From: Sapria himalayana
Lineage: Eukaryota; Streptophyta; Magnoliopsida; Malpighiales; Rafflesiaceae
Length of the DNA stretch: 64,000 nucleotides
Assembly: GCA_029783825.1 (NCBI GenBank)
Contig: JAREIK010003430.1
Location: forward strand, 94,610 to 158,609
Reading direction: 5' to 3'
In this document: piece after piece, positions 1-59,903 of the stretch
Layout: each line of letters opens with the position of its first letter
Position numbering within the stretch: position 1 is the first letter of the stretch
Translations under genes and position numbers: made by a program
Notes under the pieces: model-generated
Told to the model about the DNA's origin: nothing
Database searches by the model: none
What the model saw: only the letters and a program-made list of their open reading frames with translations

Positions 1-3000
1 TTTTGATTTTTTTTGAATTTTTTGATTTCAAAAGGTTATAAGCATTAAAAATAAAATAATTTTTAAAATCTTTGAAATGTGAATACCATGTATAATTATT
101 AATCTTATTAATTATATATCATATAAAATCAATATAAATAATTTAATGATAGATATTATAAATAATGATTAAAATACTAAATTAATAAACTATTATTAAT
201 AATATAAATATTAATTAAAATATATTACATAACACAAAATTATTCAAAATAAATTAAAAATATATTACTAAATAATAATATTTAATTTTTAAATTTTTCT
301 ATCTTTTTATAAGCTTATATTTTTTTATGATTAAAAATAAGGTTTATGTATTTAGGGATTTTGGGTTTTATGAGCTACTGATTTAAGTAAGTAAACATTT
401 AGTGGTCTATTGGTTTTATTTAAAAAAGAAATAATAAAAATTTATTTTTTGTATTCTTTCTCACTTTTTAAGATTAAAACCTTTGAAAGTATAATAATTT
501 TTAAATTTTTTTCAAAAGTGAATACATTATTTATTTATAATAATCATAATAATTATATATCATATAAATTCAATATAAATAATTTTATTCATAGATATTC
601 TAATAATTATCAAAAATAAATTAAAAATCTATTATGAATAAGATTGATATTACTTAAAATATAATATCAAAACCTAAAATAAATCAAAAGTAAAGCAAAA
701 TATATTACTTAATAATAATTATTTGTTTTTAAATTTTTATTCTTTTTATAAGTGTATCTATTTTTTGATGAAAAATTATTTATATAAATTATATTTCAAC
801 TCAATTTTTTTTATAATTAATATATATATATAAATAAAAAACTTAACAATCAAAATGAATTTTTTAAATTATACTGAAAACAAATAAAAATGAGATTATT
901 AATTATTATTTAGGGTATACCGGTTTAAAGGATTATCTATATAGGGGAATCATGATTTTGTAGTTTAGTGATTTAAGTGTTTAGGCATTTAGTGATTTAT
1001 AGGTTTTATTAAAACAATGAAATAACAAAAAAAATATTTTTTATCTTTTTTCACATGTTCGAAGGTTATATAATCTTTGAAAATATAAAAATTTTAAAAC
1101 TTTTTCAAAAGTGAATACAATATTTAGTTATCAGAATTAAAATTTATATATCATATAAATTCAATATAAACATTTTTATTGAATATTATTCTAATAATGA
1201 TCAAAAAATAAATTAATAATTTATAATTAATAAGATAGATATTAATTAAAATATAATTAAAAAACCTAAAATGATTCAGAAGCAAAGCAAAATATATTAC
1301 TATATAATAATTTTTTGTTTTAATTTTTTTTTTTATTTTCAAAAGTTTATCTATATTTTTTTGATGAAAAATAATTTATATAAATTATATTTGTGTAACT
1401 CTTAATTTATTTTGTTTTTAATATTTATATAAAAATAAACAAATAAATAATTAAATTTAATATATAAAATTATAATGAAAAAAATGAGATTTATTATTTA
1501 TTATTTATTATTTAGGGTATACCGGTTTAATTTAAATTATATCTATCTCACTAATAATTTATTTTGTATTTAATATTTCTATAAAAATAAACTGCTAAAT
1601 AATTAAAATAAAAATTTAAAATTCTATTGAATAAAAATTAAAATGAGATTTATGATTTTTTATTAATGTATACTAGTTTAATGGTTTTGACATTTTGGAG
1701 TTTATAGATTTATGTTATTATGCATTTAGTATTTTATAGGTTTTATTTAAACAATAAAACAACAAAAAAAAATTTGTAATATATTCTCATTTTTAGAGGT
1801 TATAACCTTTGAAAATATAATAAAATTTAAGATTTTCTGAAATGTGAATACAAATTTTAATTATAATAATATTAATAATTATATATCATATAAATTCAAT
1901 AAACAATTTTATTGATAAATATTATAATAATGATCAAAAATTAAATTAATAAACATTTAATAATAAGATAGATATTAATTAAAAAATAATTAGAAAACCC
2001 AAATTGATTCAAAATAAAAGTAAACTATATTACTTAATAATAATTTTTAATTTTAAAATTTTACTTCTTTTATAATCGTATATATCTTTTTTGATTAAAA
2101 ATAAATTATTTAAATTATATTTGTCGCACTCATAATTTATTTTGTAATAAATATTTCTATAAAAATAAACTAATAAATAATTAAAATGAATATTTAAAAT
2201 TATAATAAATAGAAATAAAAATTATATTTAATAATTATTATGTATTATATAGCGGTTTAATGGTTTATGTATTTAGGAATGACTAGGTTTAGGAGTTTAC
2301 TGATTTAATTGTGTGTGCATTTAGTAGTTTATAGGTTTTATTTAAAAAATAACATAACAAAAAATATATTTTTATTATTTTTTGATATTTTCAAAGGTTA
2401 TAACCTTTAAAAATATAATTAGTTTTTATTTTTTTCAAAAGTGAATTAAATATTTAGATATAATAATCATTATATTTATATTTCATATAAATTCAATATA
2501 AATAATTTTATTGATAGATATTCTAATAATTATCAAAAAATAAAATAATAATCTATTATTAATAAGATAGATATCAATTAAAATATAATTATAAACCCAA
2601 AATTGATTCAGAAGCAAAGCAAAATATATTATTATAATAATTTTAATTTTGAAATATTTATTTCTTTTTAAAACTTTATTTATATTTTTTTGATGAAAAA
2701 TAATTTATATAAATTATATTTGTCTAACTCATAATTTATTTTGTAATTAATATTTATATAAAAATATACAAATAAATATTAAAATGAATATTTAAAATTA
2801 TACTAAAAAAATTGATATTTATACTTTATTATTTAGGGTATACCAGTTTAATTTAAATTATATCTGTCTTACTAATAATTTATTTTGTAATTAATATTTC
2901 TAAAAAAAATTGTTTAATAATTTAAATAAAAATTTAAAATTATACTGAATAAAAATTAAAAAGATATTTATGAATTATTATTAATGTATACTAGTTTATT

Positions 3001-6000
3001 GGTTTAAGTATTTAGATGTTTTGTCATTTAAAAGTTTAGCGATTTATGTTTTTAGGCATTTAGTAGTTTATAGATTTTATTTAAACAATGAAATAACAAA
3101 AAAATTATTTTTGAAATTTTTTTATATTTTCAAATGTTATAACATTTGAAAATATAATATTTTTAATATTTTTTCAAATGTAAATATAATATTTAGTTAT
3201 AATAATATTAATAATTATAAGTCATTTAAATTCAATATAAATAATCACATATCTAGATATTATAATAATGATCAAAAAAAATTAACAAACTATTATTAAT
3301 AAGATAGATAATATTTAAAATATATTTGCAAAATCTAAATTTATTCAAAATCAAAGTAAAATATATTACTTAATAATAATTTTTTTTAATGTTTTGCTTT
3401 TTTATAAGTTTATATTTTTGTTTTTAAAAATAAATTATTAAAATTATATTTGTCTTACTCATAATTTATTTTGTAATTTATAATTCTATAATAATAAACT
3501 AATAGATAATTAAAATGAATATTTAAAATTATAATGAAAACAAATAAAATTGAGATTTATTATTTATTATTTAGGATATACTGGTTTAATGGTTTAAGTA
3601 TTTAGGTGTTTTGTGGTTTAAGAGTTTTGTGATTTAATTGTTTAGACCATTAATGATTTATAGTTTTTATTTAAACAATGAAAAAACAAAAAATTTAATT
3701 TTTTGATTTTTTTAATTCTTGAAGGTTATAACCTTTGAAAATATAATAATTTTTAATTTTTTTTAAATGTGAATATAATATTTACTTATAATAATCTTAA
3801 TAATCATATCTAATGTAGACTAAATATAAATAATTTTATTGATAGATATTATAATAATGATAAATAAATAAATTAATAAACTAGTATTAATAAGAATGAT
3901 ATAAATTAAAATATAATTGTAGATTCTAAAATGATTCAAAATCAAAATAATATATATTAATAAAAAATAATTTTTTATTTTAAAAATTTTGCCTCTTTTT
4001 ATAAGCACATATTTTTTTTTGATGAAAAATAAATTATTTAAATTATATTTGTCTCACTAATAATTTATTTTCTAATTAATATTTCTATAAATATAAATTG
4101 ATAATTAATTAAAATGAATATTTAAAATATAATGATTACTAATAAAAATGAGAATTATGATTTATTATTTAGACTATACTAAAATAATGTTTTGTGTATT
4201 TATAAACTTCAGGGATTAGGAGTTTAGTCATTTTAGTATTTAGTCATTTAGTGGTTTATAGGTTTAATGTAAATAATAAAAATAAAAATTTTTTTTAGAT
4301 TTTTTCTGAATTTCAAAGGTTATAAACTTTGAAAAGAAAGTAATATTTAAAATTTTTTGAAATGTGAATACCATTTATAATTATATTAATCTTACTAACT
4401 ATATATCATATAAATTAAATATAAATAATTTTAATGATAGATTTTATAATAATGATCAATAATTAAATTAACAAACTATTATTAAAAATTTAAATATTAA
4501 TTAAAATATATTTACATAACAAAAAATGATTCAAAATCAAATCAAAATATATTACTAAATAATAATATTTAATTTTTAAAATTTTTCTTCTTTTTTTAAG
4601 CCTATATTTTTTTTGATTGAATATAAATGATTTAAATATTATTTGTGTCATTCGAAATTTATTTTGAATTAATTTTTCTAAAAAATTAAACTATAAATAA
4701 TTAAAATGAATATTTAAAATTATACTAAATAGAAATATAAATGAGATTTATTATTTAATAAGGAGAATATAGCTATTAAAAGGTTTGTGTATTTAGGGGT
4801 TTCGGGGTTTATGAGTTTACTGATTTAAGTAAGTAATCATTTACTGATCTATAAGTTTTATTTAAAAAATGAAATAACAAAAAATTTATAATTATTATTT
4901 TTTCTCATTTTATAAGCTTATGCCTTTTGAAAATATAATTATTTTTAAATTTCTTTCAAAAGTGAATACAATATTTATTTATAATAATCATAATAATTAT
5001 ATATCATATAAATTCAATATAAACAATTTTATTGATAGAGATTCTAATAATTATCAAAAAATAAATTAAAAATCTATTATGAATAAGATTGATATTATTT
5101 AAAATATAATATCAAAACCTAAAATGATTCAAAAGCAAAGCAAAATATATTTCCTGATAATAATTAATTGTTTTTATATTTTTATTCTTTTTATAAGCTT
5201 ATCTATTTATTGATGAAAAATAATTTTTATTAATTATATTTTTAACTCATAATTTATTTTATAATTAATACAAATATACAAATAAAAAACTAAAAATCAA
5301 AATGATTTTTTTTTTAAATTATAATGAAAACAAATAAAAATGAGATTTATTAATTATTATTTAGTGTATACCAGTTTAAAGAATTATCTATATAGGGGTA
5401 TACAGATTTTGTAGTTTAGTGATTTACGTGTTTAGGCATTTAGTGGTGTATAGGTTTTATTTAAACAATGAAATAATAAAAAAAATATTTTTTTTATTTT
5501 TTCACATTTTCAAATGTTATAACCTTTGAAAATATAATAATTTAAAAATTTTTTTCAAAGGTGAATATAATATTTTGTAAGAATAATCATTATATTTATA
5601 TATCATATAAATTTAATATAAACATTTTTATTGATAAATATTCTAATAATGATCAAAATATAAATTAATAATTTATTATTAATAAGATATATTTCATAAA
5701 AAATATAATTACAAATTTTAAAATGATTCAGAAGCTATGCAATAATATTTAGTTATAATAATCTTAATAATTATAAGACATTTAAATTCAATATAAGTAA
5801 TTTTATAGATAGATATTATAATAATGATCAAAAATAAATTAATAAACTATTATTAATAAGATTGATAGCAATTAAAATATAAATGCAAAACCTATAATGT
5901 TACAAAATCAAAGTAAAATATATTACTAAATGATAATTTTTTTATTTTTAAATTTTTACTTCTTTTTATAAGCTTATATTTATTTTTTGATTAAAAATAA

Positions 6001-6320
6001 ATTATTAAAATTATATTTGTCTCATTCATTATTTATTTTGCAATTAATATTTATATAAAAAATAAACTAATAAATAATTAAAGTGAAAATTTAAATTATT
6101 ATGAATATAAATTAAAATGAGATTTATGATTTATTATATATGGTATACCATTTTAATGGATTATTAATTTAGTGGTTTTGTCGTTTAGGAGTTTAGCAAT
6201 TTATGTATTTAGGCATTTGCTTTATAGTTTGTATTTATATAATAAAAATAAAAAAAAATTGATTTTATCTGATTTTCAAAGGTTATAACCTTTTAAAATA
6301 AAATAATTTTTAAAATTTAT
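1..6320 (-). repeat. AT-rich satellite array 1 (minus orientation)
   Basis: Tandem satellite units, read on the minus strand. The anchor phrase GGCATTTAGTGGTTTATAGG or a close variant recurs near 397, 983, 1723, 2318, 3056, 3643, 4243, 4837, 5437 and 6214. Spacings are about 590-600 bp, with some longer units of about 740-780 bp. Two long units (near 1.55 and 2.85 kb) contain a linker in which the GGTATACCGGTTTAA motif runs straight into the body of the next unit without an octamer block. Unit types near 0.4 and 0.98 kb recur near 4.84 and 5.43 kb, giving a local higher-order period of about 4.4 kb. Short open frames here (for example 410-619 and 1151-1342) are low-complexity shadows. I see no gene. 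Confidence 0.9.
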
Positions 6321-6340
6321 ATAATAGAAAAATTAATTAC
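6300..6340. other. Satellite orientation switch 1 (minus to plus)
   Basis: Left of this point the units read on the minus strand and right of it on the plus strand. Type-a units face each other here (anchors near 6.22 and 6.75 kb). The last minus-strand text is the palindromic core with its AATAATTTTTAAAATTT tail. The first plus-strand text is AATTACAAAATAAATTTCG. The exact break lies within about 20 bp of AT-rich sequence, so I give a range. Confidence 0.7.
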
Positions 6341-7348
6341 AAAATAAATTTCGAGTGAGACAAATATTATTTAAATAATTTATTTTTAATCAAAATAAAA
6401 TAAGCTTATAAATTGAAGGACAAATTTAAAAATTAAATATTATTAATTAGTAATATATTTTGATTCGATTTGAATCATTTTGTGTTATGTAAATATATTT
6501 TAATTAATATCAATATTATTAATAATAGTTTATTAATTTAATTTTTGATCATTATTATAATATCTATCATTAAAATTATTTATATTGAATTTATATGATA
6601 TATAATTAGTAAGATTAATATAATTATACATAGTATTCACATTTAAAAAAAGTTTAATATTTATTTTATTTTTAAAGGCAATAACAATTGAAAATCAAAA
6701 AAAAAATCAAAAAAAAAAATTTTTTTTTTTTAATATAAATAAAACTTATAAACCACTAAATACCTAAAAACATAAATTGATAAACTCCTAAACGACAAAA
6801 TGCTTAAATAATCAAACAATTAAACCGGTATACCACATATAATAAATCATAAATCTCATTTTAATTTGTATTCATTATAATTTTAAATATTCATTTTAAT
6901 TATTTACTAGTTTATTTTTTATAGAAATAATAATTACAAAATAAATAATGAGAGAGACAACTATAATTTTAATAATTTATTTTTAATCAAAAAAAATATA
7001 TAATCATATAAAAAGAAGTATAAATTTAAAAACAACAATTTATTATTTAGTAATATTTTTTACTTTGATTGTGAATCATTATATATAGGTTTTGCAATTA
7101 TATTTTAATTGCTATCAATCTTATTAAGATTAGTTTATTAATTTATTATTCAATCAATTTTATAATATCTAATAATAAAATTACTTATATTGAATTTAAA
7201 TGTCTTATAATTATTATGATTATTATAACTAAATATTATATTTACATTTGAAAAAAATTTAAAAATTATTATATTTTCAAAGGTTATAACCTTCAAAAAT
7301 GATAAAAAATCACAAATATTATTTTTTTATTTTTTTATTATTTAAATA

Positions 7349-7429
7349 AAACATATAAACCACTAAATGCCTAAACATTTAAATCTCTAGACTTCTAAAC
7401 CCCAAAACCCCCTAAATACTTAAACCATA
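7349..7429 (+). repeat. Octamer block, type-b unit
   Basis: This is the part of the unit that contains the anchor phrase. It reads as consecutive 8-bp steps almost all starting with AAA: AAACATAT, AAACCACT, AAATGCCT, and onward through AAACCCCA to AAATACTT. One step is 9 bp long (AAACCCCCT). The same 8-bp register is seen in every complete unit of the window, on either strand. Confidence 0.85.
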
Positions 7430-7863
7430 TAACCTATATAACCTAAATAATAAATCTCATTTTTATTTGTATTCATTATAATTTTAAATATTCATTTTAA
7501 TTATTTTTTAGTTTATTTTTATAGAAATATAAATTATAAAATAAATAATGCGTGAGACATATATAATCAAAATAAATTATTTTTTAAGAAAAAAATATAA
7601 GCTTATAAAAATAAACAAAATTTCAAAAATTAAAATTTTATTTAATAATATAATTTACATTGATTTTGAATTATTTTGGGTCGTGCAAATATATTTTAAT
7701 TAATATTTACCTTATTAATAATAGTTTATTAATTTATTTATTGATCATCAAAATAATATATATTAATAAATTTTTTTATGTTGAATTTACATCAAATATA
7801 ATTATTAAGATTATTATAACTAAGAATTGTATTCTTATTTTAGAACTATTAAAAAAATATTAT

Positions 7864-7891
7864 ATTTTCAAAGGTTATAACCTTTGAAAAT
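7864..7891. repeat. Perfect 28-bp palindromic core
   Basis: The half ATTTTCAAAGGTTA is followed directly by its own reverse complement, with no spacer. Other perfect 28-bp copies are at 24280-24307, 27180-27207, 36011-36038 and 44095-44122. A 26-bp copy is at 61650-61675. Most other units carry a slightly decayed version at the same place, between the AT-rich body and the octamer block. Confidence 0.9.
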
Positions 7892-10800
7892 CACGAAAAT
7901 TTATAAAAATAAATCTTTTGTTATTTCATTTATTAAATAAAACCTATAAACACGTAAAAGTGCAAACATATAAATCAATAAACTCCATTAACCCCAAAAC
8001 CACAAAAAAACTTAAACCATTAAATAGGTATACCATAAATAATAAATAATAAATCTCTTTTTATTAGTATTCATTATAATTTTAAATATTCATTTTAATT
8101 ATGTATCAATTTATTTTTATATAATATTAACTACAAAATAAATTATTATTGAAATAGATATAATTTAAATAATTTATTTTTCATCAAAGAAATATATAAT
8201 TGCTTATAAAATGAGGCAAAATTTTTAAAATAAAAAATTATTATTTAGTAATATATCTTATTTTGATTTTGAATCATTTTAGATTCTACATTTATATTTT
8301 AATTTATATCATTCTTATTAATACTAGTTTATTAATTTATTTATACATCATTATTATAATATCTATTAATAAAATTATTTATATATAGTTTACATTATAT
8401 ATAATTATTAAGATTATTATAACTAAATATTATATTTACATTTAAAAAAATTAAAAATTATTATATTTTCAAAGGTTACAACCTTCAAAAAATTAAATTT
8501 TTTGTTTTTTAATTCTTTAGATAATAACTATAAATCACTAAAGGTCTAAACACTTGAATCACTAAACTCTTAAACCCAAGAACACCTAAATACTTAAACC
8601 ATTAAACTGATATATCCTTAATAATAAATAATAAATCTCAATTTTATTTGTATTCATTATAATTTTAAATAATTATTTTAATTATTTATTAGTTTATTAT
8701 TATAGAATTATAAATTACAAAATAAATTATGAGCAAGACAAATTAATTTAAATAATATATTAATAATAACTAAAATATAAAGTTATGAAAAAAGCAAAAC
8801 ATTAAAAAAATTATTATTAAATAATATATTTTACTTTGATGTTGAATAAATTTACATTTTGCAAATATATTTTAAATAATATCTATCTTATTAATAATAG
8901 TTTATTAAATTTTTTTTGATCATTATTATAATATCTAGCAATGTAATTATTTATATTGAATTTAAATGACTTATATTTATTAAGATTATTATAACTAAAT
9001 ATTATATTTACCTTTGAAAAAAATTTAAAAATTATAATATTTTCCAAGGTTATAACCTTCAAAAATTAAAAAAATAATAAAAATAAATTTTTTGTTATAT
9101 CATTGTTTAAATAAAACTTATAGATCACTAAACGCCTAAACACTTAAACCTCTAAACTCCTAAACACAAAAGCCCCTAAATACTTAAAGCTTTAAACTCG
9201 TAAACCTTAAATATAATTTAAATAATTTATTAAAATATTAATTACAAAATGAATTATGAGTGATACAAATATAATTTAAATAATTTATTTTTCATCAAAA
9301 AAAATATAAGCTTACAAAAAGAAGCACAAACTAAAAAAAATTATTATTTAGTAATAAATTTTACTTGGATTTTGAATATTTGTAGGTTTTGCATTTATAT
9401 TTTAATTTATATCTATCATATTAATAATAGCATATTAATTTATTTTTTGATAATTAATATCATATCTATCAATAAAATTGTTTATATTTAGTTTATATTA
9501 TATATTATAAAGATTATTATTACTAAATATTATATTCACATTTTTAAAAAATTTTAAAATTATTATATTTTCAACGGTTATAATGTTTGAAAATGTGAAA
9601 AAATATCAAAAATAATTTTTTTGTTATTTCATTGTTTAAATAAAACCTATAAACCACTAAATGCCTAAAAATAGTGATATAGATCTAATTTAAATTAGAC
9701 TGGTATACCCAAAATAATAAAGAATAAATCTCAATATTATTTTTTTTTATTATTTTAAATATTCATTTTAATTATTTATTTCTTTATTTTTATATAAATA
9801 TTAATTAAAAAATAAATTATGAGTTAGACAAATATAAATTATATAAATTATTTTTCATCAAAAAAATATGGATAAACTTTTTAAAAGAAAAAAAATTTTC
9901 AAAACAACAAATTTTTATATAGTAATATATTTTGATTTCTTCTTATTCACTTTTGGTTTTTTTATTATATTTTAATTGATATCTATCTTATTAATAATAG
10001 ATTATTAATCTATTTTTTGATCAATTTTTAAAATATATATCAATAATATTGTTTTTTATTTAATTTATATGATATAAAAATATAATGATTATTTTAACTA
10101 AATATTGAAAACCACTAAATGCATACACAGTAAAATCAGTAAACTTCTAAGGCCCGTAATGCCTAAATACATAAACCATTAAATTGATATTACTACTTAA
10201 TAATTAAGAAATCTAGTTTTTATTTCAATTTTTTATTATTTTAAATATTCATTTTAATTATTTATATGTTTATTTTATAGAAATATTTATTACGATATAA
10301 ATTATGAGTGCGACAAATATAAATTAAATAATTTATTTTTAATCAAAAAAAAAATATACGCTTATAAAAGAAGTAAACTTTTAAAAATTAAAAATTATTA
10401 TCCAGTAATATATTTTACTTTAATTTTGAATCAATTTGGGTCTTGTAAATATTTTTTTAATTAATATATATCTTATTATTAATAGTTTATTAATTTAATT
10501 TTTGATCATTATTATAATATCTAGAAATAAAATTGTTTATATTGAATTTATATGATATATAATTTCTAAAATTATTATAACTAAATATTATATTCAAATT
10601 TAAAAAATTTTTTAATATTATTATATTTTCAAATGTTATAACCTATGAAAAAGACAAAAAATTTCAAAATTTTTTTTGTTATTTTATTGTTTAAATAAAA
10701 CCTATAAACCACTAAATGCCAAAAAAACATAAATTGCTAAACTCCTAAATGATAAAACATCTAAGTACTTAAACAATTAAACATGTGTACATTAAGAAAA

Positions 10801-12318
10801 AATCATAAATATCAATTTAATTTTTATTAAGTATAATTTTATATTTTTATTTTAATTATTTATTAGTTTATTTTTATAGAAATATTAATTACAAAATAAA
10901 TTATTAATGAGATAGATCTATTTTAAATAATTTATTTTTTAACAAAAAAAAATATATTCTTATAAAAGGAGGCGACATTTTAAAAACAAAAATTTATTAT
11001 TTTGTAATATATTTTATTTTGATTTTGAATCATTTTAGTTTTTGCAATTATATTTTAATTTATATCATTCTTATTAAAAATAATTTATAAATTTTTTATT
11101 GATAATTATTATAATATCAATTAATAAAATTATTTATATTGAGTTTACCGTATATATAATTATTAAGATTATTATAACTAAATATTATATTCACATTTTA
11201 AAAAAATTAAGTATTATTATATTTTCAAAGGTTATAATCTTCAAAAGTTAAAAAAAATCAAAAAATTAAAATTTTTATTTTTACATTCTTTAAATAAAAA
11301 CTATAAATCACTAAAGGCCTAAACACTTAAATCACTAAACCCTAAAACATCTAAATACTTAAACCATTAAACTAGTTTATCCTATATAATAAATAATAAA
11401 TCTCTATTTTATTTGTATTCATTATAGTTTTAAATATTCATTTTAATTATTTATTAGTTGTTTTTTATAGAATTATAAATTAAAAATAAATTATGAGCAA
11501 GACAAATATAATTTAAATAAAATCTTTCTTATTAATAATAGTTTATTAATTTATTTTTTGATCATTAATATAATATCTACCAATATAATTGTTTATATTG
11601 AATTTACATGATATATAATTATTAAGATTATCAAAACTAAATATAGTATTCACATATAAAAAAATTTAAAAATTTTTATATTTTCAAAGGTTATAACATT
11701 CAAAAATGATAAAATATAACAAAAATTATTTTTTTGTTATATCATTGTTTAAATAAAACTTATAAACCATTAAATACCTAAACACATAAATCTCTAAACT
11801 CCTAAACCCCGAAACCCCTAAATAATAAATAATAAATCTCATTTTTTTTTCATTATTATTTTAAATATTAATTTTAATTATTTATTTGTTTATTTATATA
11901 TAAATATTAATTACAAAATAAATTGAGCTAGAAAAAAATAATTTATATAAATTATTTTTCATCAAAAAATTATAGATAAACTTTTTAAAAGAAAAAAAAT
12001 TTCAAAATAAAAAATTATTATATAGTAATATATTTTATTTTGCTTTTGAATCATTTTAGGTTTTGTAATTATTTTTTAATTGATATCTATCTTATTAATA
12101 ATAGATTATTAATTTATTTTTGATCATTATTAGAATATTTATCAATAAAATTATTTATATTGAATTTACATGATATATAATTATCAAGATTATTATAACT
12201 AAATATTATATTTAAATTTGAAAATAATTTAAAAATTATTATATTTTTAAAGGTTATCATCATTGAAAATGAGATAAAATCATAAAAATAATTTTTTTGT
12301 TATTTTATTGTTTATAAA

Positions 12319-12422
12319 AAACCTATAAACTACTAAATGCCTAAATGCTTAAATCATTAAACTCCTAAACCCCAAAACCCCAAAACTCCAAAACCCTTAA
12401 ATACTTAAACATTTAAACCATC
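12319..12422 (+). repeat. Best octamer block: 13 steps in exact 8-bp register
   Basis: These 104 bp split into thirteen 8-mers, each starting with AAA and none shifted: AAACCTAT, AAACTACT, and so on through AAACTCCT and AAACCCCA (twice) to AAATACTT and AAACATTT. The consensus is close to AAACNCCT; the reverse strand reads like TTTAGGGG. It resembles a degenerate telomere-type repeat but with period 8, not the plant heptamer period. Confidence 0.88.
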
Positions 12423-13752
12423 TTTAAAGGTTTAAGTATTTATAAATAATATATAAATATCGATCAATAAATAATAATTTATTAATTGATTTTTGATCAT
12501 TATTATATTTATATATTTATATTTAGTTTATTAATATCTATTAATAAAATTGTTTATATTTAATATACATGATATATAATTATTAAGTTTATTATAAATA
12601 AATATTGTATTCACATTTGAAAAAAATTTTATAATTATTATATTTATAAAGGTTATAACCATCAAAATAGATAAAAAATTTGAGAAATAATTATTTTGTT
12701 ATTTAATTATTTAAATAAAACATATAAACTACTAAATTCCTAAACACTTAAATCACTAAACTTCTAAACTCCTAAATACTTAAACCATTAAACTGGTATA
12801 CCCTAAATAATTAATCATAAATCTCATTTTTTTTGTATTCATTATAATTTTAATATTCATTTTAATTATTTATTAGTTTATTTTTATATAAATATTAATT
12901 GCAAAATAAAATTATGAATGGGACAAATATAATTTAAATATTTTTATCTACATCAAAAAAAAAAAATAAAAGAAACGAAAATCTAAAAATAAAAAATTAT
13001 TATTTAGTAATATATTTTACTTTGATTATGAATCGTTTTAGGTTTTGCAAATATATTTTAATTAATATATATCTTATTAATAATAGTTTATTAATCTATT
13101 TTATGATCAGTATATAATATCGATCAAAAAAATAATTTATATTGAATTTACATGATATTTACTTTTTATGATTATTATAATTAAATATTGTATTAATATT
13201 TGAAAAAAAAATTAAAAATTATAATATTTTCAATGGTTATAACCTTGAAAATGAGAAAAAATCATAAAAATATATTTTTTGGTATTTAATTTTTTAAATA
13301 AAACCTATAAAACACAAAATACCTAAATACTAAAATTACTAAACTCCTAAACCCTAATACTGCTGCACCACACACACATAGCGACGGACCACAGTACACA
13401 CGTGCACATATTCTTGTAAATTTTGGTGTAGCATTTAGAGGGGCCAGGCAAGTCCTGTAAGTAGCCAAAAGTATGGGCCACCAGCTTGTATAGGGCCCCA
13501 CTAGCAAGCTGGGATGATAACATTAAGACAACTGACAAGACAAAGCAAAATGGTCGGGAGTAAACCTAAGAGTAGCTAGGAGTGGGTCCCACTAGCCCTA
13601 TAAGGTAGCATAGAAGGCCACCCAACCGTCGCCCAACAGGAGTAGCAGGTAATCCATTATTAATTGGAGAGCAGGAAAAATCCGAAGCATCACCAAGTAG
13701 GGCCAGTAAGTAATGGAATCCAGACCAGCCACACGGGAGCGAAAGATTCAAA

Positions 13753-14500
13753 CTTGTAGTTTATGTTTGTAGTCTTATTTGTATTTTGGACTTTGTATGC
13801 ACCATGTACTTGTAGATATGGATCATGACATACTCACACATACAATCTTGTCTATTCTCTGTGTAGCATGCAATGGGGGCAACTGGACCCATGAGTATCT
13901 TTATGTGGGGACCACTAATGCATTTTCTAAATACACATTAGGCGATGCTACACTCCCAGGAGCAGAAGACCGATCTTTATAGCATTATGTAATTTTACTT
14001 GTATTCTAGCTTGGTTGTACGTGTAGATAATTAGATTATGAGATGGACCTAATCACACATGCACACCAATGCATGCATATTTTTTGATATTTTGTCAGTG
14101 CAACATACAGCCACTTCTTGGAGCTCGATGAGGAAGCATTCTAACCCAAGAGATACTCTTTTGAGGATCATTGGAGCAAAAGAATGTGGAATTCAGAGGT
14201 GAGAATAAATTGACAAAGTGCAGTAGATATGAACTTGTGGATTTATGGGTATTCAGTTTTACATGTATTCCATTGCATAGCAATGACATAGACTAACGCT
14301 TGATGTTGCAAGTCACGCACATGCACAATCTTATATTTGCATAGTTTTAATGTGGAGCATCATTCAGGTTACTCTAAAAGGCTTGGACAAATCCGAATGA
14401 AAAAGACGCAGTGCGCATAATGATTCAATGCATGGAAAAGATGTAGTGCGCAGTCTGGGAATGCCAGGTGATTTTAGTTGTATTCGTATGCTTGGAATTA
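13753..14500 (+). repeat. Four degenerate ~215-265-bp quasi-repeats
   Basis: The phrase TTTTANTTGTATTC or a near variant occurs four times: near 13771-13787, 13991-14006, 14256-14271 and 14471-14486. After the first three comes a CACACAT/ATGCAC-rich stretch, and after all four an acceptor-like TAG or CAG. The repeat therefore looks like intron-plus-exon modules. Divergence is high and the reading is by eye. Confidence 0.4.
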
Positions 14501-14619
14501 TTAGGCATTATGTTTTTTATGTATTTTCTGCATAGAATCATTAAGGTCCATAGGATTTGGTGGGCTGGCCTAAATTAGTCAGCTTTTTAGTCTCTTGTAA
14601 GTTGTGTGCCTAAATGATA

Positions 14620-14625
14620 AATAAA
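14620..14625 (+). promoter_or_regulatory. Possible polyadenylation signal AATAAA
   Basis: AATAAA lies in GATAAATAAAGTGTG and is followed 13 nt later by an A-run at 14638-14646. The spacing fits a transcript 3' end. Because the satellite around it is A-rich, chance is possible. Confidence 0.45.
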
Positions 14626-14650
14626 GTGTGTATTTTGAAAAAAAAACCAT

Positions 14651-14727
14651 AAACCCTAAACTTTAAATCCTAATCCTTAAACCATAAACTATAACCCCAA
14701 CTCATAAACCCTAAATCCTAAATCTCA
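14651..14727 (+). repeat. Degenerate interstitial telomere-type array (period 7)
   Basis: About eleven steps of a CCCTAAA-like motif run directly after the A-run: AAACCCT, AAACTTT, AAATCCT, and ending AAACCCT, AAATCCT, AAATCTC. The period is 7, the plant telomere period, with one 6-bp slip. This contrasts with the 8-bp register of the satellite's own octamer blocks. Confidence 0.75.
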
Positions 14728-15786
14728 TGTTTTGAACTTTTATAATCAAATGACTAAGTGTTAAATTTAAATTGAAATTCACAACTTTTTGGAATGTCAC
14801 AGATTTATCTTTTTGTATATGTAACACAAAGTCATGACTCAAGGGGTGAGTTATGGATTCACTCTCTTTCTTGCTTTAGATTATTGTAGCATTAGCAATC
14901 GTCATGATTGTATATTTTGTCTCTATAACACAAAATCATATCGATGAGAAAATGCCATAACTTGTTTCTCTCTATTGATCATATTGTTATGGAACTAATA
15001 ATGATCATGAATACATATTTAATCACTATAATACTGGGTCACAGTATTGGATATAACCATAGGTTGTGCATTTTATCTTTATATTGCAAAGTCATTGCAC
15101 TAGGAATGATTGTAACTTTCGACATTCCTCAAGAGCAAAATTCATGACCCTAGAAATACTTAAAGCTCGAGTACTACTCTTTATAACTTTCTATACCTAA
15201 AATTCTTTGGATTAGAAATATCACTATGGCTTTTTCCTTTGATGTGTGACCTCAAGTGTCAATAAGAAAGACTAATATATTGAGCAATCATTAAAACCTT
15301 TTATACATTTGAATATGATTCATTTACACATTTTTGGGTATTGTGAGCTTGTATACATAACTCATTTTATATAAAAAGAAAGAAATGATACTTTTCATAT
15401 CCATGAGAATATAAAAAGGGGGCTTAGACATGCCAATAAAATAAATTCGTTGATTCTTGATTGAAATAGAGCCATACTTCTTGCCCTGCTCAAACTGCCC
15501 TAGGGCTAGTCTGTTCTAATAGTCTACAAGGTGGTTATTTTTTTAGAGGTGAACAATGATTTAAAAAAATTGCTTTGATTGTGTGCATGAGAGATATTTT
15601 ATAAGAAATTACAATAATCAATAAAAATAGCATCCTCAACAATTAGCTATTTCAACACATATGGGTACAACTTTGCTTTAGTCTATTAGCATACATGAGT
15701 CAAATTACCTTTGATAGCCCAGTGATTCAATATCAAATATAAAGTAAAAGCTCCTATTATTTTGGTTAGAGCTTTAGCAATCATTC
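14728..15786. other. Right half of block copy 1, no recognisable gene
   Basis: This is unique-looking sequence of moderate AT content. The longest frame is 67 codons (14944-15147 +) and shows no motif I know. Phrases such as ATAACACAAAATCAT, AGCTCGAGTACTACTC and GCCCTAGGGCTAG suggest ordinary intergenic or decayed element DNA. I see no terminal repeats, primer-binding site or polypurine tract that would identify an LTR. It is absent from the 46.4-kb copy. Its last ~20 bp recur inverted at the window end. Confidence 0.5.
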
Positions 15787-18700
15787 TAGAGTTGAGAGAG
15801 GACCAAAATAAATTATTTTAATTATTCAGTATAATTTTAATTTTATTTTAATTATTTATCAGTTTATTTTTATAGAAATATTAATTACAAAATAAATTAT
15901 TAGTGAGACGGATCTAATTTAAATTAAATTCGTATATCTAAAATAATAAAGAATAAATCTCATTTTTTTTCATTTTAATTTTAAATATTCAAATTTAATT
16001 ATTTATTTGTTTATTTTTATATAAATATTAATTAGAAAATAAATTATGAGTTACACAAATATAATTTATATAAATTATTTTTCATTAAAATAATATAGAT
16101 AAACTTTTTAAAAGAAAAAAAAATTTCAAAACAAAAAATTATTCTATAGTAATATATTTTGCTTTACTTCTGAATCATTTTAGGTTTTGTAATTATATTT
16201 TTATTGATATCTATCTTATTAATAATAGATTATATGTTATTTTTTCATCATTATTAGAATATTTATCAATAAAAATATTTATATTGAATTTATATGATAT
16301 ATAAATATAATGATTTTTATAACTAAATATTGTATTCACTTTTGAAAAAAATTTTAAAATTATTATATTTTCAAAGGTTACCTTTGAAAATGTGAAAAAA
16401 TAAAAAAAATAAATTTTTTGTTATTTCATTTTTTAAATAAAAATTATAGATCACTAAATGCTTACTTACTTAAATCATTATGCTCATAAATCCCGAAACC
16501 CCTAAATACATAAACCTTTTAACAGCAATATACTACTTAATAAATAATAAATCTCATTTTTATTTTTATTCATTATAATTTTAAATATTAATTCTAATTA
16601 TTTATAATTTAATTTTTTAGAAATATTAATTACAAAATAAATTTCGAGTGAGACAAATATTATTTAAATAATTTATTTTAATAAAAAAAAATATAAGCTT
16701 ATAAAAAGAAGAAAAATTTTAAAAATTAAATATTATTATTTAGTAATATATTTTGATTTGATTTTGAATCATTTTGTGTTATTTAAATATTTTTTTATTT
16801 ATATTAATATTATTAATAATAGTTTATTAATTTAATTTTTGATTATTATTATAATATCTATCATTAAAAAGATTTTTATTTAATTTATATGATATATAAT
16901 TAGTAAGATTTATATAATTATACATGGTATTCACATTTGAAAAAATTTTAAAAATTATTTTATTTTCAAATGTTATAACCTTTGAAAATCAGAAAAAATC
17001 AAAAATAGAATTTTAAATTTTTATTATATAAATAAAACCTATAAACCACTAAATAATCAAACCATTAAACCAGCATACATTTATATTATAAATCATTAAT
17101 CTCATTTTAATTTGTATTCATTATAATTTTAAATATTCATTTTAATTATTTATTAGTTTATTTTTTATAGAAATATCAATGACAAAATAAATAATTAGTT
17201 AGACAAATATAATTTTAATAATTTATTTTTAATCAAAAAAAAATAAGCTTATATAAATAATTAAAAATTTAAAAACAAAAAATTATTATTTAGTAATATA
17301 TTTTACTTTGATTTTGAATCATTATATATAGGTTTTGCAATTATGTTTTTATTGCGATCAATCTTATTAATAATAGTTTAGTAATTTTTTATTTGATCAT
17401 TTTTATAATATCGAACAATAAAATTACTTATATTGAATTTAAATGTCTTATAATTATTAAGTTATTATAAATAAATATTATATTTACATTTGAAAAAAAT
17501 TTTAAAATTATTATATTTTCTAAGGTTATAACCTTCAAAAATGATAAAAAATCACAAAAATAATTTTTTATTATTTTATTATTTAAATAAAACTTATAAA
17601 CCACTAAATGACTAAATATTTAAATCTCTAGACTCCTAAAGCTCAAAACCACCTAAATACTTAAACAATTAAACCTATATAACCTAAATAATAAATAATA
17701 AATCTCATTTTTATTTGTATTCATTATAATTTTAAATATTCTTTTTAAATATTTTTTAGTTTATTTTTATATAAATATTAATTACAAAGTAAATAATGAG
17801 TGAGACAGATATAATTTAATTAAATTATTTTTTTTGAAAAAAAAATAAGCTTATAAAAATAAACAAAATTTCAAAAATTTAAAATTTTATTTAGTAATAT
17901 AATTTACTTTGATTCTGAATTATTTTGGGCAAATATATTTTAATTAATATCTATCTTATTAATAATAGTTTATTAATTTATTTTTTGATCATTATTATAA
18001 TATATATTAATACATTTTTTATATTGAATCTACAACATATATAATTATTAAGATTATTATAACTTAGTATTGTATTCATATTTTAGAACTATTAAAAAAT
18101 TTTTATATTTTTAAAGGTTATAACCATTAAAAATCACGAAAATTCATAAAAATAAATTTTTTGTTATTCCATTGATTAAATAAAACCTATAAACAGGAAA
18201 ATGTGTAAATATATAAATCAATAAACTCTTTAACCACAAAACCAAAAAAACTTAAACAATTAAATAGTTATACCCTAGATAATAAATAATAAATCTCATT
18301 TTTTTTAGTATTCATTATAATTTTAAATATACATTTTAATTATTTATTAGTTTATTTTTATAGAAATATAAATTAAAATATAAATTATTAGTGAGTCAAA
18401 TATAATTTAAATAATTTATTTTTCATCAAAAAATATATAGGCTTATAAATGGATACAAAAATTAAAAATTTAAAAATTTAAAATTAATATTTAGAAAAAA
18501 TAACAAAAATAAATTTTTTGTTATTTTATTTTTTATATAAAACCTATAAACGACAAAATGACTAAATACTAAAATGACTAAACTCCTAAACCCCGAAGCC
18601 AATATAGTTAAAACATTAAATTAGTATAGTCTAAATAATAAATCATAAATCTCAGTTTTATTAGTATTCATTATAATTTTAAATATTCATTTTAATTATT

Positions 18701-21700
18701 TATCAGTTTATTTTTATAAAAATATTAATTACAAAATAAATTATTAGTGCGACATAAATAATTTAAATAATTTATTTTTTATCAAAAAAATGCTTATAAA
18801 AAGAGGCACAATTTTAAAAATAAAAAATTATTATTTAATAATATATCTTATTTTGATTTTGAATCATTTTATATTATACAATTATATTTTAAAAAATATC
18901 ATTCTTATAAATACAAATTTATTAATTTATTTATTGATCATTATTATAATATCTACGAATTAAATTATTTATATTTAGTTTACATTATATAAAATTAAAA
19001 TTATTATATTTTCAAAGTTTAAAACCTTCAAAAATTAAAAAAAAAATCAAAAAATTAAATTTTTTGTTTTTTTCATTCTTTAAATAAAAACTATAAATCA
19101 CTAAAGGTCTGAACAATTAAATCACTAAACCCCTAAACTACAAAACACCTAAATACTTAAACCATTAAATAGGTATATCTTGAATAATAAATAATAAATC
19201 TCAATTTTATTTGTATTCATTATAATTTTAAATATTCATTTTAATTATTTAGTAATTTATTATTATAGAATTATAAATTACAAAATTAATTATGAGTAAA
19301 ACAAATATAATTTGAATAATTTATTTTTAATAACAAAAATATAAACTTATAAAAAAAGCAAAACATTTAAAAAAATTGTTATTTAGTAGTATATTTTACT
19401 TTGATTTGAATAAATTTAGATTTTGCAAATACTTTTTAAATAAAAACTATTTTATTAATAATAGTTTATTAATTTATTTTTTGATCATAATTATAATATC
19501 TAGCAATGTAATTATTTATATTGAGTTTAAATGACTTATAATTATTAAGATTATTATAACTAAATATTATATTTACATTTGAAAAAAATTTAAAAATTAT
19601 TATATTTTCAAAGTTTATAAAATTCAAAAATTCAAAAAATAATAAAAATAAATTTTTTGTTATATCATTGTTTAAATAAAACTTATAAACCACTAAATGC
19701 CTAAACACTTAAACCTCTAAACTCCTAAACACAAAAGTCCGTAAATACTTAAATCTTCAAACTCGTAAGCCTTAAATTTAATTTAAATAATTTATTAAAA
19801 TATTAATTACAAAATAAATTATGAGTGACACAAATATTATTTAAATAATTTATTTTTTATCAAAAAAATATATAAGCTTATAAAAAGAAGTAAAAACTAA
19901 AAAACAAAAATTTTTATTTAGTAATAAATTTTACTTGGATTTTGAAAAAATTTAGGTTTTGCAATTATATTTTAATTTATATCCATCATAATAAAAATAA
20001 CATATTAATTTATTTTTTGATAATTGATATCATATCTATCAATAAAATTGTTTATATTTAGTTTATATTATATATAATTATAATGATAATTATTACTAAA
20101 TATTGTATTTAAATTTTTAAAAAATTTTAAAATTATTATATTGTCAAAGTTTATAATATTTGAAAATGTGATAAAATATCAAAAATAATTATTTTGTTAT
20201 TTCATTATTTAAACAAAACCAATAAACCACTAAATGCCTAAAAACATAAATCGCTAAAGTCTTAAACGACAAAACATTTAAATACTTAAAATATTAAACT
20301 GTTATACATTAATAATAATTCATAAATCTCATTATAATTTTTATTCAATATAATTTTATATTTTTATATTAATTATTTATCAGTTTATTTTTATTAAAAT
20401 ATTAATTACAAAATAAATTATTAGTGAGACAGATCTATTTTAAATAATTTATTTTTCATCAAAAAAAATATATAGTTATAAAAAGAGGCAAAATTTTAAA
20501 AACAAAAATTTATTATTTTGTAATATATTTTATTTTTATTTTGAATCATTTTAGATTTTGCAATTATATTTTAATTTATGTCATTCTTATTAATAATAGT
20601 TTATTAATTTTTTATTGATCATTATTATTATATCTATTAATAAAACTATTTATATTGAGTTTACATTATATATAATTATTAAAAATATTATAACTAAATA
20701 TTATATTAACATTTAAAAAAAATCAAAAATTATTATATTTTCAAAGGTTATAACCTTAAAAAATTAAAAAAAATCAAAAAATTTAATTTTTAATTTTTTT
20801 ATACTTTAAATAAAAACTATAAATCACTTAAGGCCTAAACACTTAAATCACTAAACCCCAAAACACCTAAATACTTAAACCATTAAACTAGTATATCCTA
20901 AATAATAAATAATAAATCTCTATTTTATTTGTATTCATTATAATTTTAAAGATTCATTTTAATTATTAGTTTATTTTTATAGAATTATGAATTAAAAATT
21001 AATTATGATGAAGACAAATATAATTCAAATAATTTACTTTTAATAACAAAAAATATAAATTTATAAAAAGAAGCAAAACATCAAAGAAAGTATTATTTTG
21101 TAATATATTTTACTTTAATTTTGAATAAATTTATGTTTTGCAAATATAATTAAAATAATATATATCTTATTAATAATAGTTTATTAATTTATTTTTTGAT
21201 CATTAATATAATATATTTCAATATAATTGTTTATATTGAATTTACATGATATATAATTATTAAGATTATCATAACTAAATATAGTATTCACATATAAAAA
21301 AAAGATAAAAATTATTATATTTTCAAAGTTTATAACCTTCAAAAATGAGAAAAAATAACAAAAATAAATTTTTTGTTATATCATTATTTAAATAAAAATT
21401 ATAAAACATTAAATGCCTAATTACATAAATATATAAATTCCTAAATCCCGAAGACTCAAAATACTTAAACCTTTAAACTCGTAAACCTTTAGTATAATTT
21501 AAATAATTTATAGAAATATTAATTACAAAATAAATTATGAGTGATACAAATATAATTTAAATAATATATTTTTCATCAAAAAAACATATAAGCTTATAAA
21601 ATGATGCAAAAAATAAAAAAAAAATTTATTTAGTAATAAATTTTACTATGATTTTGAATCATTTTAGGTTTTTTAATTTTATTTTAATTTATATCTATCA

Positions 21701-24700
21701 TATTAATAATAGTTTATTAATTTATTTTTTGATAATTGATATAATATCTATCAATAAAATTGTTTATATTTAGTTTATTTTATATATAGTTATAATATTT
21801 ATTATTACTAAATATTGTATTCACATTTTTAAAAAATTTTAAAATTATTATATTTGCAAAACCTTTGAAAATTTAAAAAAATATCAAAAATAAATTTTTT
21901 GTTATTTCATTGTTTGAATAAAACCTATAAAGAATCAAATGCATAAATACTTAAATGAATAACTTCTAAATCTCGAAAACCCTAAATATATAATTTTTAA
22001 TCCGATATATCCTAAATAATAAACAATAAATCAATTTTTATTTTTTTCATTATAATTTTAAATATTCATTTTAATTATTTATTTGTTTATTTTTATATAA
22101 ATATTAATTACAAAATAAATTATGAGTTACACAAATATAATTTATATAAATTATTTTTCATCAAAATAATATAAATAAACTTTTTAAAAGAAAAAAAATT
22201 TCAAAACAAAAAATTATTATATAGTAATATATTTTGCTTTGCTTCTTAATCATTTTAAGTTTTGTAATTATTTTATAATTGATATCTATCTTATTAATAA
22301 TAGATTATTAATTTATTTTTTGATCATTATTAGTATATTTATCAATAAAATAGTTTATATTGAATTTATATGATATATAAATATAATGATTATTATCACT
22401 AAATATTTAATTCATTTTTGAAAATAATTTAAAAATTATTATATTTTCAAAGATTATAATCTTTGAAAATATCAAAATATAATAAAAATAATTTTTTTTA
22501 TTTATTTTCTTAAATAAAACCTATAAACCACTAAATGCCTAAACACTTAAATCAATAAATCCTAAATCTCTAAAACACTAAATAATAAATAATAATACTT
22601 TTAAACCAGTAACCCTATATAATAAATAATAAATCTCAATATTGTTTTTTTCATTATAATTTTAAATATTCATTTTAATTATTTATTTGTTTATTTTTAT
22701 ATAAATATTAATTAAAAATAAATTATGATTTAGACAAATATAATTTATACAAATTATTTTTCATTAAAATGAAATATAATTTATTTTAAAAGAAAAAAAA
22801 ATTTCAAAACAACAAATTATTATAGAGTAATATATTTTGCTTTCTTATGAATCATTTTTATATAGTAATATATTTTTAATCTAAATATTATTATTTAGTA
22901 ATATATTTTGATTTGGTTTTGAATCATTGTGTTATGTAAATATATTTTAATTATTATTTATATTATTAATAATTGTTTATTAATTTAATTTTTGATCATT
23001 ATTATACTATCTATCATTAAAATTATTTATATTGAATTTATTGATATATAATTATTAAGATTAATTTAATTATATATATTATTCACATTTCAAAAAACCT
23101 TTGAAAATCAAAAAAAAATCTAATAAAAATTTTTTTATTTTTATTATATAAATAAAACCTATAATCCTCTAAATGCATAAAAACATAAATTGATAAATTC
23201 TTAAATGACAAATCTCCAAAATAATCAATCCATTAAACCAGTATACCACATATAATAAATCATAAATGTCATTTTAATTTGTATTCATTATAATTTTAAA
23301 TATACATTTTAATTATTTATTAGTTTATTTTTTATTGAAATATTAATTACAAAATAAATAATGAGTTAGACAAATATAATTTTACTAATTTATTTTTAAT
23401 CAAAAAAAAATATAAGATTATAAAAAGAAGTAAAAATTTAAAAACAAAAAAGTATTTTTTGTAATATATTTTGTTTTTATTTTGAATCATTATATATATG
23501 ATTTGCAATTAAATTTTAATTGCTATCAATCTTATTAATAAAAGTTTATTAATTTATTATTTGATGATTTTTATAATATCTAACAATAAAATTACTTATA
23601 TTCAATTTAAATGTCTTATAATTATTACGATTATTATAACTAAATATTATATTTACATTTGAAAAAAAAATAAAATTTATTATATTTTCAAAGGTTATAA
23701 CCTTCAAAAATGATAAAAAATCACAAATATTTTTTTTTATTATTTTATTAATTAAATAGAACCTATAAACCACTAATGCCTAAACATTTAAATCTCTAGA
23801 CTCCTAAACACCAAAATTGTTTATATACTAAAACATTAAACCTATATAACCTAAATAATAAATAATAAATCTCATTTTTATTTGTATTTATTATAATTTT
23901 AAATATTCATTTTAATTATTTTTTAGTTTATTTTTATAGAAATATTAATTACAAATTAAATAATGAGCGAGACATATAAAATTTAAATAAATTATTTTTT
24001 ATGAAAAAAAAAACAAGCTTAGAAAAATTAACAAAATTTCAAAAATTTAAAATTTTATTTAGTAATATAATTTACTTTGATTTTAAATTATTTAGTTTTC
24101 TCAAATATATTTTAATTAATATCTATATTATTAATAATAGATTATTAATTTATTTTTTGCCATCAAAATAATATATATTAATAAAATTTTTTATATTGAA
24201 TTTACATCAAATAAAATAATTAAGATTATTATAACTAAGTATATATATTCAAATTTTAGAACTATTAAAAAATTAGTATATTTTCAAAGGTTATAACCTT
24301 TGAAAATCACGAAAATTCATAAAAATAAATTTTTTGTTATTTTATTTATTAAATAAAACCTATAAACACCTAAATGTGTAAACATATAAATCAATAAACT
24401 CATTAATCCCAAAACTACAAAAAATTAAACAATTAAATAGTTATACTCTAAATAATAAATCATAAATCTCATTTTTATTAGTATTCATTATAATTTTATA
24501 TATACATTTTAATTATTTATTAGTTTAATTTTAATAGAAATAAAAATTAAAAAATAAATTATTAGTGAGACAAATATAATTTAAATATTTTATTTTTCAT
24601 CAAAAATTATAAATGCTTATAAATGCCTACAATAATTTAAAAATTTAATAATAATATTTCGTAAAATATTTCACTTTGATTTTAAAACATTTTAAGTTTT

Positions 24701-25045
24701 GAAAATATATTTTAAACAATATTTATCTTATTAATAATTATTTATTAATAAGATAATATAATTATCAAAGGTTATAACAATTATATGATATATAATTATT
24801 ATGATAATTATAATTTCATAATATATTCACTTTTCAAAAACAATTATAAATTATTATATTTTCAAAGGTCATAACATTCAAAAATCAGAAAAAATAACAA
24901 AAATAAATTTTTTGTTATTTTATTTTTTATATAAAACCTATAAACCACTAAATGACTAAATTCTAAATGACTAAACTTCTAAACCCTGAAGCCCATAAAT
25001 ACTTAAAACATTAAATTTGTATAGTCCAAATAATAAATCATAAAC
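15787..25045 (+). repeat. AT-rich satellite array 3 (plus orientation)
   Basis: Sixteen plus-strand units with anchors near 16.45, 17.04, 17.60, 18.19, 18.55, 19.09, 19.69, 20.23, 20.82, 21.41, 21.93, 22.53, 23.17, 23.77, 24.37 and 24.94 kb. The a-b-c run occurs twice (17.04-18.19 and 23.17-24.37 kb). The a unit at 17.04 kb has lost part of its octamer block, going from ACTAAAT straight to AATCAAACC; the same deletion is seen inverted at 62.74 kb. A rearranged short stretch lies near 22.85 kb. Open frames such as 19469-19708 and 23549-23773 are satellite shadows. Confidence 0.9.
24723..24756. repeat. Perfect hairpin, 15-bp arms and 4-nt loop
   Basis: The arm TTATCTTATTAATAA, the loop TTAT, then the exact reverse complement. 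In the sister unit near 27.63 kb the second arm position reads TTATTAATCTTTTGC, so only this copy is a perfect palindrome. The usual text that follows in other units is missing here and an extra partial core (AAGGTTATAAC) follows. Confidence 0.75.
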
Positions 25046-25075
25046 AATTATCAAATAATTATTGATAAAATAATA
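25035..25075. other. Satellite orientation switch 2 (plus to minus)
   Basis: Plus-strand text ends at AATAATAAATCATAAA. Minus-strand text is clear from ATAAACAATTTTATTG onward. The join contains a small hairpin, TTATCAA and TTGATAA seven bases apart. Confidence 0.7.
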
Positions 25076-26785: not shown

Positions 26786-26795
26786 ATTCATTATA
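26781..26795. other. Satellite orientation switch 3 (minus to plus)
   Basis: Minus text CCCAAATTGATTCA passes into plus text ATTCATTATAATTTTTAA. The five bases ATTCA at 26786-26790 fit both sides, which suggests a microhomology join. Confidence 0.7.
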
Positions 26796-31469: not shown

Positions 31470-31477
31470 CTAAATGC
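31470..31477. repeat. hAT copy 1, right target duplication
   Basis: CTAAATGC, matching 27848-27855. It belongs to a type-g satellite unit continuing as ATTTAAAGTTAAATCAGT. Confidence 0.92.
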
Positions 31478-38790: not shown

Positions 38791-38800
38791 ATTATAATTT
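38780..38800. other. Satellite orientation switch 4 (plus to minus)
   Basis: Plus text (palindromic core plus AAAATTTGAAAAAA) turns into minus text TTTTTTTTTGAAAAGCGAA. The a-b-c units on either side (36.09-37.29 and 39.29-40.38 kb) mirror each other about a point near 38.28 kb, with d and e units only on the left. Confidence 0.7.
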
Positions 38801-56038: not shown

Positions 56039-56046
56039 GCATTTAG
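56039..56046. repeat. hAT copy 2, right target duplication
   Basis: GCATTTAG, matching 52727-52734; the satellite continues as TAGTTTATAGGTTTTATT. Confidence 0.92.
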
Positions 56047-58404: not shown

Positions 58405-58570
58405 TTGTAATTTTCATAGGTTATAATAATATAATAATATTTAGTTATAATAATATTTAAAATATAATAATATTTTAAATATTTATAATATTTATAATAT
58501 CATATAATAAAAAATGATATAAAATTATATTTATTAATTTTCATAGGTTATAACCATTGAAAATATAATA
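58405..58570 (-). repeat. Local duplication of the palindromic-core region
   Basis: The phrase TTTTCATAGGTTATAA occurs twice, near 58411 and 58539. Between them is a scrambled run of ATAATATTTA-type words not found in other units. It looks like a local copy-and-scramble event centred on the core. Confidence 0.6.
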
Positions 58571-59870: not shown

Positions 59871-59903
59871 TCACATCTTCAAAGGTTACCTTTGAAGATG
59901 TGA
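59871..59903. repeat. Perfect hairpin, 16-bp arms and 1-nt loop
   Basis: The arm TCACATCTTCAAAGGT, one T, then the exact reverse complement. The core has lost TATAA-type bases to become GGTTACC. The right arm reads GAAGATGTGA where other units read GAAAATATAA, so it mirrors the left arm including its odd C. Confidence 0.8.

Follow-up and report, generated by a model that had tools for sequence, protein, structure and literature searches.

A relic of an 8-bp minisatellite, most likely derived from (TTTAGGGG)n, in an old AT-rich satellite of Sapria himalayana

The row of AAA-starting octamers found in units of an old, AT-rich satellite of Sapria himalayana is a relic of an 8-bp minisatellite, most likely derived from (TTTAGGGG)n. 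We consider it rather probable that the row is a fossil of such an array, captured by the progenitor of the satellite, plausibly as a G-addition variant of the plant telomere repeat, and that it serves no present function. This reading draws its direct support from the 8-bp period, from the ancestral octamer recovered under a simple model, from the inheritance of the row position by position, from changes in its length by whole octamers, and from the equal decay of C/G sites inside and outside the block.

The satellite and its octamer block

The window, i.e. the whole 64,000-bp stretch of DNA that was analysed, and the features within it that are referred to below are as follows.

1..64000, no strand assigned: satellite-bearing window, with 127 profile matches covering 51,573 of 64,000 bp (81%)
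12319..12422, forward strand: flagged octamer block, 13 AAA-starting octamers in a row on the C-rich strand, read directly; the consensus count plus 2
12322..12703, forward strand: rearranged satellite unit with the flagged block (profile matches 12322-12445 and 12457-12703)
20216..20303, forward strand: unit whose 11 octamers, as many as in the consensus, follow one another without a break; read directly
7349..7429, forward strand: second example of the sequence-only reading; AGA start in octamer 6, and a change of register behind octamer 8 through an insertion of 1 bp
47372..47432, reverse strand: inverted example of the same reading; 7 octamers in register, one with an AAG start, ending at inserted DNA
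14644..14722, forward strand: contrast block outside the satellite, a degenerate 7-bp AAACCCT repeat in inserted DNA, from lag analysis and wrap-around scores

The large satellite of about 0.6 kb that had been recognised by eye is confirmed by a profile constructed from repeats within the window. Its monomer of approx. 583-600 bp is AT-rich and diverged, and related copies of it form a long head-to-tail array, as in satellite DNA proper. Satellite-only stretches have a G+C content of about 13%, mean pairwise identity among the 59 full-length units is 0.806, and orientation switches 4 times among 107 long matches. The tests of site conservation, the indel counts of the profile alignment, the comparisons of identity and composition, and the reconstruction from the consensus take their alignment from these 59 full-length units of the 127 matches. 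Some units are longer (e.g. 1021-1741, 34145-34869 and 48417-49143), with model positions 77-229 present in duplicate, and ten pieces spanning positions 1-229 fall into one clade of the tree along with five ordinary units. A 26-bp palindrome, TTTTCAAAGGTTATAACCTTTGAAAA, occurs with at most 3 mismatches at 52 satellite sites (e.g. 7865-7890, 24281-24306 and 61650-61675), compared to 0 in 100 shuffles; it was considered as a covarying hairpin and rejected as such, with 7 compensated cells over 13 pairs and many more broken ones among the 59 full units. Inserted DNA at 13360-15822 and 46400-47372 has 991 bp in common, at 88% identity and in inverted orientation. The satellite match ends in both copies at the same model position (62, within the octamer block), which suggests the inverted duplication of a larger segment. 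No relatives of 12300-12900 were found among plasmids, and none in viral contigs (two patterns) or genome contigs (one pattern); Rfam at gathering thresholds gave no match. The octamer blocks are free of G-quadruplex motifs, the window's three G3 four-tract motifs being located inside hAT elements.

The satellite profile yields a consensus row of 11 octamers, fewer than the 13 of the flagged block: AAACCTAT, AAACCACT, AAATGCCT, AAACACTT, AAATCACT and AAACTCCT (octamers 1-6), followed by AAACCCCG, AAACCCCT, AAATACTT, AAACCATT and AAACTGGT (octamers 7-11); for the final base of octamer 7, the profile consensus gives G, and A is the majority base among the 59 aligned units. The 13 unslipped 8-mers initially reported at 12319-12422 are indeed there on direct reading, as AAACCTAT, AAACTACT, AAATGCCT, AAATGCTT, AAATCATT, AAACTCCT and AAACCCCA (1-7) and AAACCCCA, AAACTCCA, AAACCCTT, AAATACTT, AAACATTT and AAACCATC (8-13). 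A run of this length is an extreme case, seen in this one block of 84. Unbroken AAA runs span from 2 to 13 octamers over the 84 blocks and reach at least 10 in 15 of them, so the unit at 12319-12422 is the best case and atypical of its family. In the profile search, this unit aligns with model positions 2-109, and then a gap extends until positions 363-585. Right after the octamer row, at 12400-12460, a portion of it recurs in inverted orientation as a short copy (TTTAAAGGTTTAAGTATTTA), and this copy, followed by the restart of the satellite match at model position 363, suggests that the unit may have undergone local rearrangement.

Two further statements of the sequence-only reading had to be narrowed. 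The presence of octamers in every unit of about 0.6 kb, as it held, was not demonstrated: 84 blocks were found in the 127 matches, a good number of which are incomplete or interrupted by inserted DNA. Of the common register that it saw in both orientations, the inverted example stands, with 7 octamers keeping step near 47.38-47.44 kb, whereas the row at 7349-7429 slips owing to its AGA start and 1-bp insertion. In the profile alignment, a single-site insertion is present in 7 of the 59 full units.

Period and ancestry of the octamers

The period of the row is 8 bp rather than 7 bp, as was first noticed by eye: among periods 4-14, a period of 8 wins in 83 of the 84 blocks, the fixed spacing of a minisatellite nested in the monomer. 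Autocorrelation over the same blocks peaks at lag 8, with a mean self-identity of 0.55 compared to 0.336 in dinucleotide shuffles, and shows harmonics at lags 16, 24, 32 and 40; self-identity at lag 7 is 0.413. Over the whole 64,000-bp window, AAA recurs at period 8 up to 13 times in a row on the forward strand and up to 12 times on the reverse strand, while runs at all other periods from 4 to 14 do not exceed 6, a limit also observed at any period in 40 Markov-simulated windows. Likelihood testing of the consensus block gave a gain at period 8 alone among periods 4-14 (+45.7 log units relative to a composition model), and the top period-8 score elsewhere in the monomer was -17. A period of 7 was discarded for the satellite block, being beaten in lag, wrap-around and likelihood tests. 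A tandem-repeat finder gives 24-bp periods in several octamer blocks. A higher-order unit of 24 bp was also considered and rejected, as similarity between octamers follows no three-octamer cycle (0.377 at lag 3, about 0.45 at lags 5 and 6). Since the units have a shared ancestry, agreement among them does not amount to independent evidence, which is provided instead by the periodicity inside one row.

AAACCCCT, i.e. TTTAGGGG on the other strand, came out as the most likely ancestor of the consensus row of 11 octamers at 8 of 8 divergences tried, and the same octamer was recovered as ancestral in 61 of the 84 individual blocks; these reconstructions presuppose a star tree and a substitution matrix estimated in the same satellite family, from sequence outside the block. 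In wrap-around scoring of the consensus block, AAACCCCT obtained the best score of nine units tried (50, compared to 35 for AAACCCT), and the satellite block thus lacks the 7-bp TTTAGGG register of the Arabidopsis-type interstitial repeat. Within the consensus row, 36 of 55 variable positions agree with the majority base of the 11 octamers, relative to 28.6 when permuted (p = 0.0008). At positions 4-7, agreement (26/44) is only what composition predicts (26.2), so the inner C4 of the reconstruction leans on C-richness and AT-ward decay; such a lack of excess agreement is expected if the four inner sites were all once C. Exact AAACCCT plus one base is present in 82 of 553 octamers, which share ancestry, compared to 28.6 (maximum 42) for within-octamer shuffles.

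An origin from a variant telomere repeat, as proposed in the sequence-only reading, is compatible with the ancestor TTTAGGGG, and telomere descent of the block is plausible. Descent as such is unproven, because 36% of permutations that preserve the C-rich, G-poor composition of the block yield a majority octamer of the type "telomere heptamer plus one base", and 8.7% yield exactly AAACCCCT. These frequencies are also what lends weight to the foremost alternative, namely that slippage gave rise to an ordinary C-rich 8-bp minisatellite whose likeness to TTTAGGGG is a convergence of AT-plus-C-tract sequence, with no telomere ancestry. We regard this as a possible but somewhat doubtful origin. It agrees with the lack of column-specific signal at positions 4-7 and with the lack of any intact tandem pair of TTTAGGG or CCCCTAAA in the 64,000-bp window. 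No TTTAGGGTTTAGGG was found in the window either, nor any CCCCTAAACCCCTAAA in these 64,000 bp, which may lie away from any chromosome end.

However, the composition of the block (23.2% C and 5.1% G) differs from that outside it (5.5% C and 5.4% G), and a neighbourhood with 5.5% C does not account for a C-rich origin. Moreover, AAA followed by five bases drawn at approximately satellite composition has a probability of 0.0005 of giving a telomere-plus-one octamer. The strand bias of the block (23% C, 5% G, with 5.5% C in the satellite) resembles that of telomere repeats, and the reconstructed unit obeys the formula TxAyGz which telomere repeats follow, as stated in the available part of a telomere review (PMC7046594). 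We infer that the octamer may have arisen from the plant telomere heptamer TTTAGGG by addition of a G, and that this variant may have been inserted, or amplified, in an interstitial position.

Inheritance, length change and selection

At variable positions, the same octamer compared across units shows an identity of 0.646, while different octamers within a unit show 0.388. The row is thus passed on position by position, without ongoing homogenisation. Length change by whole units, as is typical of a minisatellite, is evident in the profile alignment of the 59 full units, where 7 of 8 block deletions of at least 3 bp measure 8 or 16 bp, compared to 2 of 57 outside the block (tallied per unit, not per event). 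It is weaker in the unit-by-unit alignment of 84 blocks to the consensus, in which damaged copies and those at hAT junctions were retained: here, 9 of 21 block deletions of at least 3 bp are of 8 or 16 bp (flanks: 4 of 22), and neither length occurs among the 5 block insertions of at least 3 bp. The net change in block length by this alignment is 0 in 47 of the 84 units. Ten units show a net change of -8, of which two (7352 and 12322) were treated as artefacts with a gap at the right edge of the block, leaving 8 units at -8, with 2 at -16. The other net changes are -31, -26, -6, -3, +5 and +13 (once each), -2 (three units), -1 (nine), +1 (five) and +2 (two).

When mapped onto a tree of 80 units, built from sequence outside the block and omitting unit 12322 (match too short), with length labels set by hand, the -8 state (8 units) requires 3 changes, the -16 state (2 units) 2 changes, and the +1 slip (5 labelled units) 2 changes. 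If the flagged unit, with its two additional octamers, is included, whole octamers may have been gained or lost about six times in all, which fits slippage or unequal exchange. Slippage would be the probable mechanism of octamer length change, and since either process moves whole octamers, phase could be retained without selection.

Selection for an A-tract spaced at 8 bp, the other origin considered in the sequence-only reading, is unsupported. It would make the row a binding array or a structural element requiring TAAA every 8 bp, which we judge quite improbable. Conservation above background, as a selected array would display, was not found: AAA sites in the block are conserved at 0.931, much like A/T sites outside (0.913, p = 0.43), and C/G sites are conserved to the same extent inside (0.697) and outside the block (0.698, p = 0.74). 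Compared with isolated AAA elsewhere, AAA trimers of the block remain whole in somewhat more of the units (0.822 vs 0.735), and TAAA tetramers behave likewise (about 0.79 vs 0.73); this is in the direction that selection predicts, but neither difference is significant (p = 0.15 and p = 0.42, respectively). The constant net block length of the majority of units noted above also agrees with a selected spacing. Nevertheless, the block is less conserved overall than the rest of the monomer (pairwise identity 0.738 vs 0.817), and sites of 1-2 bp indels are of similar density inside and outside (15.1 and 19.7 per 100 positions, respectively). Eleven tracts at a spacing of 8 bp are out of step with the helix, reaching 12% of the helical in-phase sum, which argues against helical phasing of the A-tracts.

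The A-tract ladder thus mostly shows no sign of selection. The one contrary result concerns the 13 inner A/T sites (positions 4-7), whose conservation (0.806) is lower than that of A/T sites outside (0.913, p = 0.04) and also lower than that of the AAA sites (0.931, p = 0.04). We read these 13 sites as putative former C sites that still vary between subfamilies; mild constraint on AAA also fits. The block presumably has no present function. AT-ward decay can mimic a selected 8-bp A-tract ladder in neutral DNA, which calls for caution in motif-spotting in AT-rich satellites.

Host telomere, hAT insertions and known repeats

It could also be imagined that the telomere of the host itself is, or formerly was, the 8-bp TTTAGGGG, and that the block was copied from this telomere. 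The identity of the reconstructed octamer with TTTAGGGG agrees with this, and there is a precedent for 8-bp telomere repeats in other green lineages, TTTTAGGG (PMC7046594, available part). However, the contrast block at 14644-14722 in the same window behaves as a heptamer repeat, with an identity of 0.67 at lag 7 and 0.44 at lag 8, and scores 49 with AAACCCT and 31 with AAACCCCT, the opposite order to that found for the satellite block (35 and 50, respectively). Furthermore, TTTAGGGG is absent from the available portion of the text of the same review (PMC7046594), and elsewhere in the telomere literature, as far as available in excerpt, it appears as a variant of TTTAGGG (e.g. PMC10601145). 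A telomeric octamer in the host is thus very improbable.

The window contains two copies of a hAT element of 3.3-3.6 kb with a dimerisation domain (PF05699), at 27856-31469 and 52735-56038. Its protein presumably resembles plant hATs, which agrees, like the PF05699 domain and the 7-bp AAACCCT block, with a plant as the host; a search with the hAT fragment retrieved two matching proteins, neither of them named. The copies, in opposite orientation, align over 3,342 bp at 90.5% identity and are counted as one insertion because both sit in a longer duplicated segment (26832-31128 vs 57070-52771, 87% identity). The element lies inside octamer 3, flanked by an 8-bp duplication, CTAAATGC, which is the one observation in keeping with the notion that the octamers accumulated as 8-bp target-site duplications of repeated, since departed hAT insertions; this is hardly credible, as a single insertion event is seen and separate insertions would be unlikely to share one C-rich octamer.

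The fossil minisatellite is therefore retained as the preferred reading, and its history may be envisaged as follows. An array of 8-bp units, most likely (TTTAGGGG)n, i.e. (CCCCTAAA)n, would have become part of the sequence from which the satellite monomer later arose. This capture would have predated amplification of the monomer, and the octamers would already have diverged by then. The block would subsequently have been copied along with the monomer, while decay of C/G sites to A/T left a TAAA skeleton at 8-bp spacing, and slippage or unequal exchange between octamers may occasionally have gained or lost whole octamers. If the block is of telomere descent, a G-addition variant can expand to an array of its own and become locked in a satellite, and satellites could serve as archives of past telomere-like repeats. 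It is tempting to go further and to imagine that the lineage once had a uniform (TTTAGGGG)n array, a G-expanded repeat of telomere type, which either seeded a major AT-rich satellite or was taken up by one. Although this is unlikely, the satellite units would in that case record a past 8-bp telomere-like repeat, perhaps due to a templating slip of telomerase RNA.

In our literature search, no description of (TTTAGGGG)n as a telomere or as the seed of a satellite came up, and other registers of TTTAGGGG in connection with satellites and telomeres led, in the excerpts available, only to human chromosome engineering. In its form, the block is a variant of known plant interstitial telomere-like repeats. 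As described in the available parts of the respective reports, interstitial telomeric or telomeric-like repeats in Arabidopsis centromeres and Cycas pericentromeres are likewise degenerate, away from chromosome ends and in repeat-rich surroundings (PMC8621592, PMC2883606, PMC9498494, PMC9827991). Unlike the 7-bp units of these repeats, the Sapria himalayana block has an 8-bp register, with about 11 units fixed inside a monomer of approx. 600 bp. The telomere variants described for Cycas are substitutions, in contrast to the octamers found here, and the Cycas study, as excerpted, sought substitution variants only and would miss octamers. The potato subtelomeric satellite CL34 (339 bp) also harbours short direct subrepeats in its monomer, yet this monomer is of a different length, and the available description mentions no telomere-like octamers (PMC3276127). 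The Chlamydomonas telomere repeat TTTTAGGG is an 8-bp TxAyGz repeat like the reconstructed octamer (PMC7046594, in part), but of the form T4AG3 instead of T3AG4, and scores 37 on the consensus block compared to 50. In barley telomeres, 75-87% of additions are G, yielding TTTAGGGG, according to the part of that report available (PMC10601145). This variant is identical to the ancestor reconstructed here; in barley it is found among variants in live telomere arrays, whereas in Sapria himalayana the array lies within a satellite.
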